Virus record (IMG/VR): IMGVR_UViG_3300046616_000024
Coordinates: 1 to 37,982 of that record
Origin: a virus
DNA length: 37,982 bases
Strand: one strand, 5' to 3'
Under the pieces are notes generated by a model. It did not search any database, had not been told where the DNA came from, and saw nothing but the letters and a program-made list of their open reading frames with translations. A program made the position numbers and the translations under genes. This document shows positions 18,936-37,106 of the stretch, piece by piece. Each line of letters opens with the position of its first letter. Within the stretch, counting starts at the first letter, position 1.

Positions 18936-18954
18936 CTGCGAGAGTGAGGGTTAA
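18936..18954 (-). promoter_or_regulatory. Phage RNA polymerase promoter P4 (virion genes)
   Basis: The plus strand reads CTGCGAGAGTGAGGGTTAA, i.e. TTAACCCTCACTCTCGCAG on the coding strand. Four copies with this core occur in the window, all oriented toward genes and all in gaps or gene ends. The AACCCTCACT core equals the T3-class promoter core. By alignment with T3, transcription should start at the G of GCAG (about 18939). P4 is the only copy upstream of the roughly 18 kb virion block. Confidence 0.88.
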
Positions 18955-18955
18955 G

Positions 18956-29143: not shown

Positions 29144-29544
29144 TTGATTTCCTTTAGCCAAGCCTCTGGAATCCACTTATCGGAATAGAGGAATCCATTT
29201 TTCTCACACCACATGGCGTAAGTTGTCTTGGAGGTCTTGGAGATGGTTGATTTGGAGCGACTGAACACAAAGCGGATGTCTAAATCCGGGTTCTGTGCCT
29301 TTACTAGGAGGTGCTTCTTGCGGTCTGCGGTCTCAAATTTTCCCTTGGTCTCGATGTAGATACCATTGGGAAGCCGGAAATCGGGAGTGTACTTATGGGG
29401 AGTCGCTGGAGTGACGTAGTGAATCTTCTCCTCCTCATAGGCCGCTTCGATTCCCGCTTGCTTCAACTGGTCCGCTACCGCTTCCTCAAGTCCACTTCGA
29501 TAGGCTGCTTCGAGGTGGCGCACTGCGTAGGCGTTACGCGGCAT
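29140..29544 (-). CDS. Endonuclease I, Holliday junction resolvase (gp3-like)
   Basis: A 134-residue enzyme (T7 gp3 is 149). Residues Glu20, Asp55, Glu65 and Lys67, in YTPDFRLPNGIYIETKGKF, fall at exactly the T7 active-site positions. It should resolve branched DNA during recombination and packaging and help degrade host DNA. ATG at 29544 has a GGGGG about seven bases upstream and overlaps the end of the HNH gene by 11 bases. Confidence 0.96.
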   Translation of the reverse strand: MPRNAYAVRHLEAAYRSGLEEAVADQLKQAGIEAAYEEEKIHYVTPATPHKYTPDFRLPNGIYIETKGKFETADRKKHLLVKAQNPDLDIRFVFSRSKSTISKTSKTTYAMWCEKNGFLYSDKWIPEAWLKEIK

Positions 29545-29983
29545 GGCGAGCCCCCTTCGAGGAGTTGGCGGCCTGCGGAATCACTCTCCAGTTCTTATGC
29601 CAGTGGAGACCTCGGACACTCTTTCCCTTCCCAGGGATGATGTGGTCAACACTGAAGCGTGCTCCAGCGAGCTTCGTTAGGCGCTCGGAGAGGTCGTGTG
29701 CTTCTACCCACGCCAACTCATCGAGTTCCCCATACCAACTGGGGACCTGCGAGGCTTCCCAGCGCCTGCGCTTGGTGACGTAGCTCACAGGGTTCTTGGC
29801 TTCCCAGTCGATTCGCCAAGCGTGTTGGCGTTCTGGGTTTGAGAGGCGCACCTTGCGTGCGTCCGAGATGCAGCAGGTCTTACATTTGTTCAGCGTTCCG
29901 TCCTTCATCATTGGGTGAGCGTAGAACTCACCCTTTGCCTTCTCAACGGAACACCGGATGCACCGCTTAAAACTCGATGTCAT
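29534..29983 (-). CDS. HNH endonuclease with zinc-ribbon N-terminus
   Basis: A 149-residue protein. CIRCSVEK (residues 8-15) and CKTC (34-37) form a zinc-ribbon pair; [35 protein letters not shown] at residues 108-142 is the HNH core (DH, then N at NWRVIP, and the closing N-x-x-K). Its ATG at 29983 lies 17 bases inside the single-strand binding protein gene with no clear Shine-Dalgarno, and its end overlaps endonuclease I. The tight insertion between two conserved replication genes suggests a homing-type mobile gene. Confidence 0.85.
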
Positions 29984-30665
29984 CGTCCGCGCTGTCTACT
30001 GCACCCTTCGTGCTGCCTGCAGTTTCTTCCGGGAACTCTTCATCGCTGCTCGCTTCGTAGCCAGCTTCTGCGCCAAAGCCGAAGCTCGATGCGCTGCGCG
30101 AACCCTCAGATACGAGGTCGATAACCTGCACCGCCTGCAAGCGGAGGCTGAGGCCTGCTGCCCCCGTGCCCGGAATAAAGTACGGGCTCGCTTGGAACGA
30201 GACCTTTCCGATTGTGCCGCCCCAGATGTTCGGAACGTTCTTCAGAACCGTGCCCTTAGCATCGAACACCGAGGGCTTCCGCGTCCACGCATCACCCTTC
30301 TTGTTCTTGCCGCTCGCGGTCATCTTGAATTTGAAGATGAGGTTGCCGGTGGGCTCTTCCGTGTCCTTATCGTACTCGGTGGAGAAGAGGTCATTGCGCG
30401 TGACTTCTTTGAGCTTCTTACGGCTGCCAATCGGGAGCTTCTCGAATTCCTCTTCAGCAGCTTCGATGGCCTTCTCGTATTCCTTGGTCAGCTTGTCGAT
30501 GAGCGGCTGCGCTTCGTCTTCCGTCAGCACAAGGCTAACCTTGTATTCACCTGCGGGCTTCGGGAACTTCTCGTTGCCGTAATCGGGCTTCGAGAGGGCC
30601 GGGAACTGGAACGTGCCTGCGGGGGTCGTGCCTTGGAAAATCTTGGGTTTCTTATCGGTTGCCAT
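29967..30665 (-). CDS. Single-stranded DNA-binding protein (gp2.5-like)
   Basis: A 232-residue protein, the same length as T7 gp2.5. It begins with a Lys-rich segment and [31 protein letters not shown], the typical opening of the OB-fold of this family, and ends with an acidic tail and terminal Phe (DSADDDIEF), which in T7 contacts polymerase and helicase. It lies beside endonuclease I and the primase/helicase as in T7. The ATG at 30665 follows a TAA by one base. Confidence 0.93.
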
Positions 30666-31153: not shown

Positions 31154-31290
31154 GCTTGGTCTCCTTGGGGTTCTTGTTCAGCGGCTTCGAGTTCCAGTGC
31201 GAGGACCGAGCGGTACTCATAGAGAGCATCGATTTGGCCGTCCACGCGCTGCAGTTCTTGCAAGATGCCGGTAATGAGCGGTTCGTTCAC
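31150..31290 (-). CDS. 46-residue hypothetical protein, GTG start
   Basis: MNEPLITGILQELQRVDGQIDALYEYRSVLALELEAAEQEPQGDQA when read from GTG at 31290: one amphipathic helix. GTG overlaps the upstream stop as GTGA and its own stop overlaps the next ATG. The exact fit between neighbours supports it; function unknown. Confidence 0.6.
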   Translation of the reverse strand: MNEPLITGILQELQRVDGQIDALYEYRSVLALELEAAEQEPQGDQA

Positions 31291-31547
31291 TTCAGTTCAC
31301 CTTTAACGTAATCGCGGAGGGCCTTGGTCTCCCGCGTAAAGAACCCATCGGCATCCTTAGCCACCCTCGTGGCCTTGCTGATGAGTTCGCTTGGGTCCAA
31401 CTTGAGCTCCTCGCAGATGACCGTGAAGAGCACCGCTACGCCAGCCACCTGCTTGTGTCGCGGGTAGCTTTGGATGGCCGATACGGCTGCGTATGCGGAC
31501 TCCACGGCGTGGAAGGAGATGATTGAGTTGAGCTTGTCCTTGTCCAT
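31287..31547 (-). CDS. Hypothetical helical protein
   Basis: An 86-residue helical protein (MDKDKLNSIISFHAVESAYAAVSAIQSYPRHKQVAGVAVLFTVICEELKLDPSELISKA ... RDYVKGELK). The text PRHKQVAGVAVLFTVICEEL could be a buried helix. ATG at 31547 overlaps the preceding stop (ATGA). No family recognised; the position is in the small-gene cluster after promoter P3. Confidence 0.7.
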   Translation of the reverse strand: MDKDKLNSIISFHAVESAYAAVSAIQSYPRHKQVAGVAVLFTVICEELKLDPSELISKATRVAKDADGFFTRETKALRDYVKGELK

Positions 31548-31717
31548 CAGTTGATGAGTCCTTGTGTGCGCAGCTCGAAGTCAGCCTTCATAGCCGCGAA
31601 TGTCACGAAGCCATGCTTACGAGCAAAGCGGTTCAACTTGCGGGTGTGCTTCGCGCCTTCACGCTTGCCGCCTACGGTGGACAAGGTGCGGACTACTGCT
31701 ACAGCTTTGGATTTCAT
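31547..31717 (-). CDS. 56-residue basic protein, first gene after promoter P3
   Basis: MKSKAVAVVRTLSTVGGKREGAKHTRKLNRFARKHGFVTFAAMKADFELRTQGLIN, very rich in Lys and Arg. ATG at 31717 has AAGGA about nine bases upstream, and the stop overlaps the next ATG. It is the first product expected from promoter P3, about 40 bases downstream of the predicted start point. The basic nature suggests nucleic acid binding; this is inference. Confidence 0.7.
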   Translation of the reverse strand: MKSKAVAVVRTLSTVGGKREGAKHTRKLNRFARKHGFVTFAAMKADFELRTQGLIN

Positions 31718-31749: not shown

Positions 31750-31777
31750 GTTTGGTTCTGCGAGAGTGAGGGTTTAG
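31750..31777. repeat. 28-base direct repeat, copy 1 (contains promoter P3)
   Basis: Identical over all 28 bases to 32465-32492. The two copies flank the terminator and methyltransferase gene as a 715-base unit. This copy supplies the last two sense positions and the TAA stop codon of that gene as well as promoter P3. Confidence 0.93.
31758..31776 (-). promoter_or_regulatory. Phage RNA polymerase promoter P3 (DNA metabolism genes)
   Basis: Plus strand CTGCGAGAGTGAGGGTTTA, coding strand TAAACCCTCACTCTCGCAG. It overlaps the stop codon of the methyltransferase gene and faces the replication gene block. It shares its flanks with P2. Confidence 0.88.
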
Positions 31778-32418
31778 ACGCGGTTCGCTGCGAAGACAGC
31801 CCGAGCGAAGCCCATAGGGGTAGCGCTGCGGAAGTTCATGCGGTCCTCTCCGGGGGGCGCCATGTGGATGCGGTTGTCAGGAAGCCCCAGCGGTGTAGCC
31901 CACTGGCGCTCTGGCATGACGAAGCCATTACCCGACCAGAGGCAGGTGTTCTTCGTGTAGTTGTCCCCCGGGCACAGCGCGTTGAACTCCCAAGGGTGGA
32001 ATGAGTGCTGTGGTTTCCCGAAGATTCCCGAGAAGCCGCTTACGGGGTTCTCGAAGAACCATGGCGCCCCCGAGAGTTCGCCAATCATTCGGCACTGCTC
32101 GGCCACGATGGCTGCCTTGGCTTGGAAGTACGGGTCCTTCTTGCGCTTCTCTTCCCACCAGCGGGCACCAGATACGGCCACATCAGTGCAGGGAGGGAAG
32201 CCAGCCACGAAGGCCAGGCGGTCTTGCCTTACGAGCTCTCTGATATAGGAGAGGGTCAGTGCGTCAGCAATCACAGCCCCGATGCGGGTCACTTGGCCCA
32301 CCGTGGAGACTCCTCGGGGGTGCTGCGGGTCAACCAATACTGCGTGATAGCCCGCTGCCACCCACGGGTCCGTCATGTGCCCCGTGAGGTCACAGAGGGA
32401 CAGGATGGTGTCTCTCAT
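31774..32418 (-). CDS. Cytosine-C5 methyltransferase-like protein without target domain
   Basis: A 214-residue protein. Residues 5-31 (ILSLCDLTGHMTDPWVAAGYHAVLVDP) resemble the SAM-binding motif I and acidic strand of Dcm-type enzymes; VAGFPPCTDV at 71-80 is motif IV with catalytic Cys77; FFENPVSG at 121-128 takes the place of motif VI ENV. The large target-recognition domain is absent. I start at ATG 32418 (AGAGG eight bases upstream); the frame is open further only through the terminator and promoter. It may protect phage DNA against restriction or may be a non-methylating relative. It is flanked by 28-base repeats, so it may be a mobile module. Confidence 0.78.
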   Translation of the reverse strand: MRDTILSLCDLTGHMTDPWVAAGYHAVLVDPQHPRGVSTVGQVTRIGAVIADALTLSYIRELVRQDRLAFVAGFPPCTDVAVSGARWWEEKRKKDPYFQAKAAIVAEQCRMIGELSGAPWFFENPVSGFSGIFGKPQHSFHPWEFNALCPGDNYTKNTCLWSGNGFVMPERQWATPLGLPDNRIHMAPPGEDRMNFRSATPMGFARAVFAANRV

Positions 32419-32430
32419 AGGTGTTCCTCT

Positions 32431-32465
32431 GAAAATGAAAAACCCCCATCCGAAGATGAGGGCCG
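32431..32465 (-). terminator. Intrinsic terminator downstream of RNA polymerase (early terminator candidate)
   Basis: On the minus strand CCCTCATC pairs with GATGGGGG across TTCG (32462-32455 with 32450-32443), followed by TTTTTCATTTTC. It lies about 20 bases after the start point of promoter P2 and before the methyltransferase start. Its place after the RNA polymerase gene resembles T7 TE, which stops host RNA polymerase. Confidence 0.88.
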
Positions 32466-32492
32466 TTTGGTTCTGCGAGAGTGAGGGTTTAG
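32465..32492. repeat. 28-base direct repeat, copy 2 (contains promoter P2)
   Basis: Identical to 31750-31777. It lies between the RNA polymerase stop codon and the terminator. Confidence 0.93.
32473..32491 (-). promoter_or_regulatory. Phage RNA polymerase promoter P2
   Basis: Plus strand CTGCGAGAGTGAGGGTTTA. On the coding strand transcription should begin near 32476 and meet a terminator after about 15-35 bases, so P2 would give either a very short RNA or read-through into the methyltransferase gene. Confidence 0.88.
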
Positions 32493-32530: not shown

Positions 32531-34963
32531 TCAGGCAAAGAAATACTCCGATTGGAGGACCAAATTCAAATCCAGGTTGCCCATCGGGGGCAGTTCGGGA
32601 ATCTCAGCGGCCAGCGCTTCAGGCAACTGGGCGACCAACTGAGCCTTGAAGTCTGCCAGCACATCTCCGCTGTACTGGTCCACGAACGCCTGACGGAGAC
32701 AATCGCGGAGAGCCTCAGCGGAACCCGCATGGCTGCCATAGCTATCGTGAATCATTGCGAAGTCCGAGATGCCTGCATCAATACAGTAGGCCACCGTGCG
32801 CATCATGTGGGCCGCATCGAGGGAGTGGATGAAGTTCGGGGAGATGCCTGCAGATTGCTTACGGCCATCCAGCTTATCACCGTCGCTCTTCAGCATGAGC
32901 TGCACACGGACACCAGCAACCACCATGTCCAGGCGCTTGCCCACCTGTTCGCGGTAGCTCTGGAGCACCAGCAGACCACTCGGGGTATTCCAGTGGACCG
33001 GGAGGCCGTTGGACGCTGCCACGCGAGCGGCTTCCTTCAGCCAGTCCATAGCCAAGTGAGCGGCCACCACCACCTTACCGATGGCCTGATAGTTCGTGTT
33101 GGCGAGGTACTGACAATCCTTCAGGTCAGCGGCAACTTCAGCACCGTCAGCCTTCATCTTCTGGAAGACACCCTCAATCTGCTGACACATCCCACGCTTG
33201 GTGGCACCGTAAGGCGTGGTCATGGTGTTGGGCTTGGAGAGCTTGCGGGTCATCTTACCGGCCCACTTCTGGCCCATCTCGATGCCTTCGTCAGCGTCAG
33301 CCTGCATCAGCATGTTGGCGGCCTTCGCCACTTCACTGTAGATGTCACTCGGCTTATCGCTGGGGACCAAGCCAACCGCAGCGCCCCCCACTTCATCCCG
33401 AAGGAGGGCCGAGAAGTTCTGCAGGCCATTGCAGGCGCCATCCCACGAGCACGGGAGGTGGCTTACGAAGTCCTCTTGATCCTTACCGAGGTCCGTGTGC
33501 ATCGTCAGGGCCAGCCACTCGTAGCAGAAGGCCAGGAACATGTACGGGCTGTCAGCATCGGCCCACCAGCGGGAACCATCCAGCGGGTTGATGGCGGCCT
33601 CCAGGATTTGGTCCTGATGGTCGATGACCCACTGCACCCGCTCATCGAAGGTGACCTTGTCGATGCCGAAGGTGTTGGCACCGTGGATGGCCAACCAGCG
33701 AGCACCATTGTCCCCCAGTGCTTTCCCTTCCGAGAACTGCAGGAGCGCCTTGTCGCTATCGGCACCCTGCGGGTTCAGGAAGGTAGCCACCGGGTACGCA
33801 CGGCCACGCCAGTCCAGATTGTGAACGTAGTAGAAGGCTTCGATGTTTTCGAACTTCTCGGCCATCCACAGCTTGCTGGACATCGAGGCCCGCTTGGATG
33901 CTGCGCGGATGTTGCCCTCATACACCTGTGCTGCCTGCTTCTTCCACGCCTTGAGCTCCTCCGGGTCAGGCGTATCGAGGTCAAAGGTCTTCGTAGGGAG
34001 GGGCATCGGGTCCCGGTGGGGCAGCTTACCGAGGCGGCCACCGTTGTCCCAGACTTCCTTCATCACATGCAGGATGGCCGTGTTGATGGCCCACGGGGTG
34101 TCTTGGAGGGCATTGACGGCCTTGTAGACCATCGGCATGGAGACCTGCTTCAGGTCCTCCAGGTAGTTTCGGTTGCCAGTCTTGATGAGCGGGAAGCGCA
34201 TCGGCTTGGTCAGGTAGCCACCACCGAACGGGCTGGTCCAGGGGCGCGGCTTGACCACCATAGGCATAGCCATAGGAGACATAAGGGCACACCGAGCGTG
34301 GCCGTTGGCGAGCCACTTGGCGGTTTCTTCAGTGGGAACCACGATGTGCGGGGTGTCATTGGCGCCACGGACGAAGGTCTGGACCTCCACAAGGCCCGTA
34401 GCTTCCTGAAACATCGAGATGAGGGCCATGCCCAAGCGCACCTTCTCTGACTTGCCCCACTTAATCGGCGTGATCTTCGCGTACTTCTGCTGAACGCGCA
34501 GGACGATGTGACGGTGGCGTTCGTCCCGTGAGTTCTCAATCTTCTTGAGGAGCTGGCGGTACAGAGCAGGCTCAGCCTTCTTGAGGTCATCGAAGTTGAG
34601 GCAGTCTTCGAGTCGATTGGCAATGTCACCAGCAACAGCACCGACCATAGACATGCTGGAGATGTGATTCATGACAACCTTGGCGGTAACAAATGCCACC
34701 AACTTGCGGTCGGGGAATTGATCCAAGAATCGCACCACGCCTACCGAACGGTTTGCCTTCCCAGACAGCCCTTCCTCGATGAATTTGTCAATGACAAGCG
34801 CAGTCGGCTCTACCGCAGCCTTAATCATCTGAAGCCCAGGCGGCATCGTATCTTCCCCCTGCTTCAGCGCTTCGTTATATCGCTTCATTCCGAGCCCGAT
34901 GCTCTCTTCTTCAAGTTCAATCTGGAGAGCGTTCAGGTCGAGGGTGGAAGTGTTTGCGGTCAT
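32531..34963 (-). CDS. Single-subunit DNA-directed RNA polymerase (T7 gp1-like)
   Basis: An 810-residue enzyme (T7 883). Catalytic residues: Asp508 in WDGACNGLQNFSALLRDEVGG (T7 Asp537), Lys577 and Tyr585 in KPNTMTTPYG (T7 Lys631, Tyr639), Asp740 in MIHDSYGS (T7 Asp812). The end NLDLNLVLQSEYFFA keeps the conserved Phe-Ala C-terminus. In the specificity loop (KRLDMVVAG), Asp679 aligns with T7 Asn748, the residue that reads promoter positions -10/-11; T3 has Asp there, which fits the CC found at those positions in the four promoters here. I choose ATG at 34963, with AGGGA eight bases upstream, over an open extension from 35029. A phage promoter and a host-type promoter lie upstream. Confidence 0.97.
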   Translation of the reverse strand: MTANTSTLDLNALQIELEEESIGLGMKRYNEALKQGEDTMPPGLQMIKAAVEPTALVIDKFIEEGLSGKANRSVGVVRFLDQFPDRKLVAFVTAKVVMNHISSMSMVGAVAGDIANRLEDCLNFDDLKKAEPALYRQLLKKIENSRDERHRHIVLRVQQKYAKITPIKWGKSEKVRLGMALISMFQEATGLVEVQTFVRGANDTPHIVVPTEETAKWLANGHARCALMSPMAMPMVVKPRPWTSPFGGGYLTKPMRFPLIKTGNRNYLEDLKQVSMPMVYKAVNALQDTPWAINTAILHVMKEVWDNGGRLGKLPHRDPMPLPTKTFDLDTPDPEELKAWKKQAAQVYEGNIRAASKRASMSSKLWMAEKFENIEAFYYVHNLDWRGRAYPVATFLNPQGADSDKALLQFSEGKALGDNGARWLAIHGANTFGIDKVTFDERVQWVIDHQDQILEAAINPLDGSRWWADADSPYMFLAFCYEWLALTMHTDLGKDQEDFVSHLPCSWDGACNGLQNFSALLRDEVGGAAVGLVPSDKPSDIYSEVAKAANMLMQADADEGIEMGQKWAGKMTRKLSKPNTMTTPYGATKRGMCQQIEGVFQKMKADGAEVAADLKDCQYLANTNYQAIGKVVVAAHLAMDWLKEAARVAASNGLPVHWNTPSGLLVLQSYREQVGKRLDMVVAGVRVQLMLKSDGDKLDGRKQSAGISPNFIHSLDAAHMMRTVAYCIDAGISDFAMIHDSYGSHAGSAEALRDCLRQAFVDQYSGDVLADFKAQLVAQLPEALAAEIPELPPMGNLDLNLVLQSEYFFA

Positions 34964-35049
34964 GATGGTATTCCCTAGTGGATGTCGGCAGCCAATAAAA
35001 ACGCCTCCTGCGTCGAACGCGGGAAGCATTGAAAGTTACTTTCCTACTA

Positions 35050-35729: not shown

Positions 35730-35748
35730 CTGCGAGAGTGAGGGTTAA
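35730..35748 (-). promoter_or_regulatory. Phage RNA polymerase promoter P1, upstream of its own polymerase gene
   Basis: Plus strand CTGCGAGAGTGAGGGTTAA, coding strand TTAACCCTCACTCTCGCAG. It faces the HNH and RNA polymerase genes, with no terminator recognised in between, so the phage polymerase would transcribe its own gene. Confidence 0.87.
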
Positions 35749-35800
35749 GGCCGTATGGGAATCAGAGGGAACAACAGGAGGGAGACTTTTGGAAAGAGCT

Positions 35801-35985: not shown

Positions 35986-37080
35986 TTAGGCTGCTTCGCT
36001 AGAGACACCAGGAGTGCCCTTTTGACCACTTTCGGGCACACTTTGGTCACAGTTTTGGTCACACGCTGGAGCCCCAGTAGCGGCCAGAATATCAGCAACT
36101 TGGCGCAGCCCCGAGGCACTCACATGGATGTACTTCTGGGTGGTCTTGAGTGACTTGTGGCCTAACATCTGCTGAATCAGTGGGGCCGATACGTTGGCAT
36201 CAGCGAGCCGTGAGCCTACCGTATGACGCAGCGTGTGCATCACGAACTCTGCATCCTCAGCGAACCCCATCTCCTCCCTGACCCACCTCCAGGCCCTCGT
36301 TGCCATAGTCTCTGAGAGCATCCCAAAGGGCTTCGAGAGGTGAGCTCGGGATGTCAATACATCAACCACTCGGGGCGTCATGGGGACACCACGGGGCTGC
36401 TTGTTCTTGGTCACCCACAGGACAATCTGCTTCTCGGGGAGACTGAAGTTGGCCCGTGTGAGACTCAGGCACTCGTTCAGTCTCATGCCGGTATCGGCCA
36501 GTACCTTGATGAGGTCCGCTACGTCAGCGTAGAGGCCCTTGGGGGCCTTCTGGAGCCTCTCGATAGCCTCAGCCACCTCCTCGTTGGTGAAGCGGCGCTG
36601 GCGGCCCTCTGCTACCTTGGCGCGGACAATCCTAGGCTTCACCAATTTGTCATACCCCCAGTTGTCCAAGGCTTCGTTGAACAAGACTGAGAGCTGGGAC
36701 ACACGCTGGTTGATGGTGGACCCCGCCTTGCCGTCCTTGGTCATGCACTCGATGAAGCCATTGATGGCCTCACGGTCGATGCTGGACAGCTTACGGCCAG
36801 CCGTGAAGTAATCCTCGATGGCCCTCCGGTTCTTATCGATGGTCCGCACGTCTGGACTGTCCCGCCAGGGTTTGTATTCCCGCATGGCCGTCTTGTAGGC
36901 TTCCCCGAGGGTGGGCCCATAGTCAGCGATGGACTTCTTGGAGGCAACCTCAGTGACCCCAGCGAGGAGCTCAGCTTCCTTGCGCTTGGCTTCCTTCTTA
37001 TCTGTGGTGCCCAGGGACTTGCGCACACGCTTCCCATCCACGTACCCATCGAACCACCACACATCCCCGCGTAGCTTCAT
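35986..37080 (-). CDS. int: Tyrosine recombinase, phage integrase
   Basis: A 364-residue integrase. The N-terminal part has an arm-binding-type segment (KLRGDVWWFDGYVDGKRVRKSLGT), then a SAM-like core-binding domain (about 60-160). Catalytic residues, numbered from the ATG at 37080: Arg200 (ADTGMRLNECL), Lys225 (VTKNKQPRGVP), His282 and Arg285 (MHTLRHTVG), His308 (LGHKSLKTTQKY) and Tyr317. All are present, so the enzyme should be active. An upstream in-frame TTG at 37092 is an alternative start. The C-terminal codons overlap a TTGGTCAC repeat pair (encoding CDQNCDQS). It is directed toward the RNA polymerase operon and lies behind the MarR-like gene. Its presence implies lysogeny. Confidence 0.95.
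   Translation of the reverse strand: MKLRGDVWWFDGYVDGKRVRKSLGTTDKKEAKRKEAELLAGVTEVASKKSIADYGPTLGEAYKTAMREYKPWRDSPDVRTIDKNRRAIEDYFTAGRKLSSIDREAINGFIECMTKDGKAGSTINQRVSQLSVLFNEALDNWGYDKLVKPRIVRAKVAEGRQRRFTNEEVAEAIERLQKAPKGLYADVADLIKVLADTGMRLNECLSLTRANFSLPEKQIVLWVTKNKQPRGVPMTPRVVDVLTSRAHLSKPFGMLSETMATRAWRWVREEMGFAEDAEFVMHTLRHTVGSRLADANVSAPLIQQMLGHKSLKTTQKYIHVSASGLRQVADILAATGAPACDQNCDQSVPESGQKGTPGVSSEAA
36043..36062. repeat. Paired TTGGTCAC sites, right pair within the integrase 3' end
   Basis: TTGGTCAC at 36043-36050 and 36055-36062. Including flanks, it matches the pair at 35801 at 21 of 25 positions. A single further copy is at 37821-37828 upstream of the operon. Confidence 0.6.
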
Positions 37081-37106
37081 AACCTTCCCCAATTTGCCGG
37101 TAAACG

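Follow-up and report, generated by a model that had tools for sequence, protein, structure and literature searches.

The region between the RNA polymerase gene and a conserved 56-aa open reading frame (ORF) of this phage is probably, with a likelihood that we put at about three in four, an exchangeable accessory-gene slot bordered by phage promoters. Close relatives hold different genes, or none, at precisely this place, which gives it the look of a site into which accessory genes are plugged. In the phage studied here the slot carries a DNA methyltransferase gene, set between two identical copies of a 28-base repeat.

Layout of the window

The window is the whole stretch of DNA that was analysed, 37,982 bases of IMG/VR virus record IMGVR_UViG_3300046616_000024, with its main genes on the (−) strand. 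Along that strand a phrog_9665 regulator is followed by a tyrosine integrase, promoter P4, an HNH endonuclease gene and the T7-type RNA polymerase gene, and then by the left slot promoter, a stem-loop, the methyltransferase gene, the right slot promoter, conserved small ORFs and a T7-type single-stranded DNA-binding protein (SSB). The features are listed below.

37530-37147, (−) strand: regulator phrog_9665, by profile match
35986-37092, (−) strand: tyrosine integrase, which marks a temperate phage
35730-35749, (−) strand: promoter P4, a match to the 20-base core upstream of the polymerase
35568-35095, (−) strand: HNH endonuclease gene, between promoter P4 and the polymerase
32531-35029, (−) strand: T7-type single-subunit RNA polymerase, 832 aa (Pfam RNA_pol, E 6e-115), the slot's upstream neighbour
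32465-32492, (−) strand: left slot promoter (P3 or PL), copy 2 of the 28-base repeat, ~40 bases past the end of the polymerase gene's coding part
32441-32464, (−) strand: stem-loop with a T-run, terminator-like, just downstream of the left promoter
31774-32418, (−) strand: cassette gene, DNA methyltransferase of 214 aa (phrog_757), stop codon within the right promoter
31750-31777, (−) strand: right slot promoter (P2 or PR), copy 1 of the 28-base repeat, preceding the conserved downstream genes
31547-31717, (−) strand: conserved 56-aa ORF, the slot's downstream neighbour in relatives
31287-31547, (−) strand: conserved 86-aa ORF, a further downstream neighbour
29967-30665, (−) strand: T7-type SSB (Pfam SBB_T7, E 1e-25), an annealing and recombination protein in T7
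29534-29983, (−) strand: endonuclease VII-like gene (phrog_1035, E 1e-17), a possible junction resolvase
18936-18955, (−) strand: promoter P1, a match to the 20-base core

The succession of regulator, integrase and polymerase is the one that characterises temperate T7-like phages (Autographiviridae, LUZ100 type). A megablast search of the window from 29.5 to 38 kb against isolated phages gave no match. A close relative (L079/L065; relatives are given here by L numbers) sits within a bacterial genome, that of Paraburkholderia susongensis (NZ_FXAT01000004.1), and the host of the window phage therefore probably belongs to the Paraburkholderia group. A search for close polymerases in genomes around this host, 146 at genus level and 398 at family level, found only the one already known. 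A stretch of ~525 bases that includes the HNH endonuclease gene (35588-35063) is present in the window and in L007 and missing from L008, L009, L013 and L068; it is probably a mobile endonuclease insertion.

The repeat and its promoter core

The sequence at 32465-32492 recurs exactly at 31750-31777, as the initial annotation had noted (GTTTGGTTCTGCGAGAGTGAGGGTTTAG, or CTAAACCCTCACTCTCGCAGAACCAAAC when read on the (−) strand). The two copies are spaced by 715 bases and the window has no third. The repeat is the longest exact one in the window and the only one of 28 bases, compared with a longest repeat of 13-17 bases in 20 Markov-1 simulations. Its 20-base core, CTNAACCCTCACTCTCGCAG, occurs at four sites in the window (both slot copies, 18936-18955 and 35730-35749) where 0.02 would be expected. 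The same annotation held that the identity runs past the core on both sides into flanks not shared by P1 and P4. This is correct downstream, where the 8 bases AACCAAAC follow, but upstream the repeat adds only an A at the N position.

These 8 downstream bases are not peculiar to the window pair and are conserved at the slot across relatives generally, with 6.2/8 alike within a genome and 5.8/8 between genomes (permutation p 0.05). The core itself, of which there are about eight versions among 16 polymerase haplotypes, is 19.6/20 identical within a genome and 16.3 between genomes. The polymerase dictates the core, and the 8 following bases match almost as well from one genome to another as within a genome; the perfect identity over 28 bases therefore largely reflects promoter constraint and is no proof of recent recombination. 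A recent duplication was considered as the cause and rejected as unnecessary, given the clade-wide conservation of the 8 bases. Strict promoter constraint over all 28 positions had been offered beforehand as an explanation that would speak against a cassette; it does largely account for the identity, while the cassette reading stays strongly supported.

The core resembles the T3 promoter (CCCTCACT). One residue of the polymerase specificity loop changes together with promoter base −8, Q occurring with T in 11/11 and R with C in 5/5, that is in all 16 haplotypes, which through their relatedness are not fully independent. The R/C pairing is found in separate parts of the tree, in L009, in L066/L014/L127 and in L125, whose nearest neighbour L068 is Q/T. 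The T7 counterpart of this residue, Q758, contacts base −8. Because loop residue and base covary in this way, the slot repeats are very likely the cognate promoters of the phage's own T7-type polymerase.

The natural covariation also provides a ready-made collection of polymerase-promoter pairs that may be orthogonal. A separate observation concerns L068 (IMGVR_UViG_3300046507_000263), in which, compared with window positions 37982-30572, the polymerase gene has 72% DNA identity and both flanks have 90-99%. All four promoters in this stretch (sites 221, 5647, 8505 and 8582) have a different core, ACCTACCTATAGC, and the polymerase and its promoters appear to have switched specificity together.

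Contents of the slot in relatives

Relatives were found through the polymerase, the promoter sequence and the 56-aa ORF; they are mostly metagenome contigs and represent the 16 polymerase haplotypes. Methyltransferase A, the gene of the window, is also carried by L003-5, L011 and L067, whereas L006 has a methyltransferase B and L008 a methyltransferase C. A family of 75-81-aa ORFs occupies the slot in L013, L014, L015 and L065/L079, and unrelated small ORFs are found in L017, L066 and L127. L009, L012 and L016 are tandem, in that a further promoter-stem-loop-gene unit comes after the first two genes (the sequence of L010 ends before its second unit). Two loci, L007 and L068, are empty in the form promoter-stem-loop-promoter, and L125/L126, one phage on two contigs, has a single promoter and no gene. 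The distance between the promoters reaches ~1.2 kb in other relatives.

Five different contents occur in five phages whose polymerases are 95-100% identical, namely methyltransferase A (window and L003-5), methyltransferase B (L006, 99%), no gene (L007, 99%), a small ORF (L013, 97%) and methyltransferase C (L008, 95%). Over the polymerase tree of 16 haplotypes the content changes at least 12 times. The initial annotation had asked for relatives with another gene between two promoter copies, or with one promoter and no methyltransferase. Both kinds exist, the former in L006, L008, L009, L013, L014, L015, L017, L065, L066 and L127, and the latter in L125/L126; among the relatives compared we did not find the opposite situation, with the methyltransferase gene present in all and its flanks diverged.

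The window and L006 are 95% identical through the polymerase, the left promoter and the stem-loop as far as 32433, just past the stem-loop. Homology is then lost over the gene and returns at 96.7% exactly at 31777, where the right promoter begins. The same borders were found against L007, L008 and L013, the last of which additionally matches 19 bases into the gene end.

The cargo gene and its stop codon

The whole of the 214-aa cassette protein matches the profile of the phrog_757 DNA methyltransferases (E 1.1e-67, residues 2-213); searches of Pfam and NCBIfam gave no match, and no solved relative was found. PPC and ENP motifs, recognised by eye, suggest a C5-type fold. The TAA stop codon falls inside the repeat copy at 31750-31777, as had been noticed from the sequence at the outset. 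In the clade, all 13 complete cassette genes have their stop codon within the right promoter, and 12 share the same TAA.

Methyltransferase A of the window and of L011 are 90.5% identical at the nucleotide level whereas the adjoining polymerase genes are 81.6% identical, which suggests that the cassette has moved separately from the polymerase. This gene was found with three promoter types, so that any barrier arising from polymerase specificity would be leaky over time. Methyltransferases B and C are both of the N6/N4 type with a mutual identity of 29%. Even so, the two proteins share the terminal residues RIESVA, and the final bases of their genes ahead of the right promoter are almost identical (L006 3365-3385, L008 9376-9396), suggesting an exchange inside the gene end.

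The stem-loop

The 715-base unit had been described as holding one terminator and one gene, and it does contain a single stem-loop with a T-run and the 214-aa gene. A stem-loop follows the left promoter in all occupied single-cassette loci seen and in both two-promoter empty loci; L125/L126 has none, and neither has L009 behind its first promoter. Among relatives the sequence of the stem-loop varies while the pairing is kept, with 97.9% of cells paired, three pairs changed on both sides and a covariation of 0.324, compared with 0.155 for shuffled and at most 0.119 for slid controls. We infer that the element is terminator-like. In LUZ100 the phi4 promoter, mapped by transcript sequencing, is likewise directly followed by a stem-loop terminator, T6 (PMC10134795).

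A model for cargo exchange and its alternatives

The slot can be described as a left promoter, a stem-loop with a T-run, a ribosome-binding site with one or more genes, and a right promoter that contains the stop codon, followed by the middle genes. We propose that the host polymerase would transcribe the early genes into the slot and there meet the stem-loop. Once the phage polymerase appears it would start at the left promoter, partly read through the stem-loop and make the cargo, here the methyltransferase, whose most likely role would be the protection of phage DNA against host restriction. At the right promoter the phage polymerase would start anew for the middle genes. Swapping the cargo, adding a second unit in tandem or losing the gene would then leave transcription of the neighbours undisturbed, because the stem-loop would shield the slot from transcription arriving from upstream, and transcription of the downstream genes would be restarted at the right promoter.

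As a promoter must match its polymerase, the borders would be kept alike within a genome and would also match those of phages with the same polymerase specificity. About 20-30 bases would therefore be shared at each end of the slot, a length sufficient for recombination by annealing as in T7. A T3/T7 recombinant has a crossover within 8 bp, for which cutting by Endo I and annealing were proposed (PMC3276506), and the T7-type SSB encoded in the window is in favour of such an exchange. Our partial literature search found nothing directly on promoter-driven recombination in T7-like phages.

The initial annotation took the gene to be a cassette gained or lost by recombination between promoter copies. 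The cassette is borne out by the variable contents and the empty sites. The route is plausible and would be consistent with the borders, but L007 and L068 do not fit it: in this empty form, the commoner of the two, the stem-loop and both promoters are retained, and loss is thus not simply a promoter-by-promoter deletion. The pair may be kept by some function, for example as a replication origin as in T7 or for strong downstream expression as proposed for LUZ100. A related alternative, to which we give a minority chance, is that the promoters are paired mainly as a primary replication origin or for strong expression up to the SSB, and that gene insertion is incidental. It is compatible with an exchangeable slot. 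T7 has phi1.1A and phi1.1B directly after its polymerase gene at a distance of 75 bases, T3 an annotated primary origin in the same place and LUZ100 a tandem phi2/phi3 that its authors link to SSB expression (PMC10134795), and the two gene-free loci with both promoters agree with it as well. In contrast, L125/L126 manages with one promoter, and elsewhere the two stand up to ~1.2 kb apart.

It could also be that the promoters are ordinary ones under strict constraint and the repeat has no part in exchange. Illegitimate recombination would then strike anywhere and selection would retain only junctions that spare the promoters, mimicking directed exchange. Dictation of the core by the polymerase in every genome, the clade-wide conservation of the 8 extra bases, hardly more alike within than between genomes, and an empty state that usually retains both promoters speak for this explanation. 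We nevertheless regard it as rather improbable, since in the close pairs compared the junctions lie no more than a few bases from the start of the right promoter, the promoter supplies the stop codon in 13/13 genes, and both a single-promoter empty site (L125/L126) and a tandem array with an extra promoter copy (L009) exist. Active mobilisation of the cassette by the integrase or the adjacent HNH endonuclease, in an integron-like or homing-driven manner, is very unlikely. Both genes lie within 5 kb and the HNH stretch is present or absent among relatives, but the slot borders are promoters at which no recombinase site was recognised, and slots vary in L008, L013, L009 and L068, all of which lack that stretch. 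Short repeats can also misjoin metagenome contigs; an assembly artefact is nonetheless scarcely credible here, with the identical arrangement in L003, L004 and L005 (three contigs from three datasets) and equivalents in the sequenced P. susongensis genome (L079) and in isolated phages. An exchangeable slot bordered by promoters therefore remains our preferred reading.

Comparison with known systems

The promoter-early-stem-loop (PeSL) units of T4-type phages are mobile regulatory cassettes (Arbiol 2010 and Comeau 2014, as cited in PMC4503421). They are reportedly small repeats of a promoter and a stem-loop at the edges of variable accessory genes, whose shuffling by recombination they would mediate; small DNA circles are reportedly formed as by-products. 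The window slot likewise pairs a promoter with a stem-loop, directly after the left repeat, and borders variable genes in otherwise collinear relatives. PeSL differ in having a host sigma70 promoter where the slot has a promoter of the phage's own single-subunit polymerase; no sigma70-like site was found at the window slot. The slot also differs in that its stem-loop lies downstream of the promoter and its right border is a bare promoter, and in being one fixed position, as against many for PeSL, in an unrelated phage group. Hence the slot works like PeSL cassettes but, because the promoter type differs, it is not one.

A closely similar arrangement is gene 1.05 of T3 and phiYeO3-12 (NC_003298, NC_001271), which lies between phi1.05 and phi1.1, also directly behind the polymerase. 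Here too one gene stands between two phage promoters with its stop codon inside the second (T3, AGTTAACCC). The gene is apparently a different one, the cargo of the window being a phrog_757 methyltransferase; an RNase III stem-loop follows the second promoter, in contrast to the terminator-like hairpin after the first in the window, and the two records describe no variety of contents. T7 (NC_001604) has phi1.1A and phi1.1B as tandem promoters behind its polymerase with a stem-loop, seen on folding, between them. This resembles the empty promoter-stem-loop-promoter state of L007 and L068, in that T7 has no gene between. In T7 the hairpin serves as an RNase III site and is not terminator-like.

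If the HNH gene and the cassette are set aside, the gene order of the window matches that of LUZ100 (PMC10134795), and LUZ100, RHEph01 and RHEph21 share its regulator-integrase-polymerase order. A repeated promoter-like sequence stands right behind the polymerase in LUZ100 and in the Rhizobium phages RHEph01, RHEph21 and TRX32-1. In LUZ100 this is phi2/phi3, mapped by transcript sequencing and sharing 27 nt (PMC10134795). In RHEph01 the 21-nt repeats enclose a BRO-family gene, whereas RHEph21 has a pair without a gene and TRX32-1 another gene and a further copy. What sets these phages apart from the window is a polymerase identity of only ~38-40%, together with different promoter sequences and a different cargo. 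In LUZ100 (L131, 6472-6566) we also observed that phi2, alike with phi3 over 27 identical bases, is flanked by an inverted repeat, GAGCCAG/CTGGCTC.

Lambdoid morons are similar in that an accessory gene with its own promoter stands where relatives have nothing. A moron has its own promoter, a downstream terminator and foreign composition. The terminator-like hairpin of the window lies upstream of the gene, and the cassette, at 62% GC, is close to the phage at 58% and not foreign; its contents are moreover swapped in one slot. The window cassette is thus no moron in the usual sense.

Significance

We put forward only tentatively, as a possibility somewhat unlikely to hold, that temperate T7-like phages in general use promoter pairs behind the polymerase as a plug-in slot, with the promoter doubling as the exchange sequence. 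Distant polymerase relatives (28-45%) mostly lack a 14-base repeat pair behind the polymerase, so that an exact promoter pair is not universal, and a near repeat pair was absent there in S2B, BB8, CRP-125 and Limnohabitans YIMV22061. No paper that presents this position as a general site of exchange came up in a partial search of the literature. If the proposal is true, the polymerase would set which phages readily trade cassettes, and trading alternative methyltransferases would be a quick change of protection against host restriction.

The slot gives a concrete and testable case of how compact T7-like phages may gain and swap accessory genes, at a fixed position with borders kept alike by the polymerase. 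It makes testable now the ideas that phage promoters act as recombination sites, that methyltransferases expressed early are swapped to counter host restriction, and that a polymerase can change jointly with all its promoters, as L068 may illustrate. It also points to new early accessory genes, several kinds of which have unknown function.
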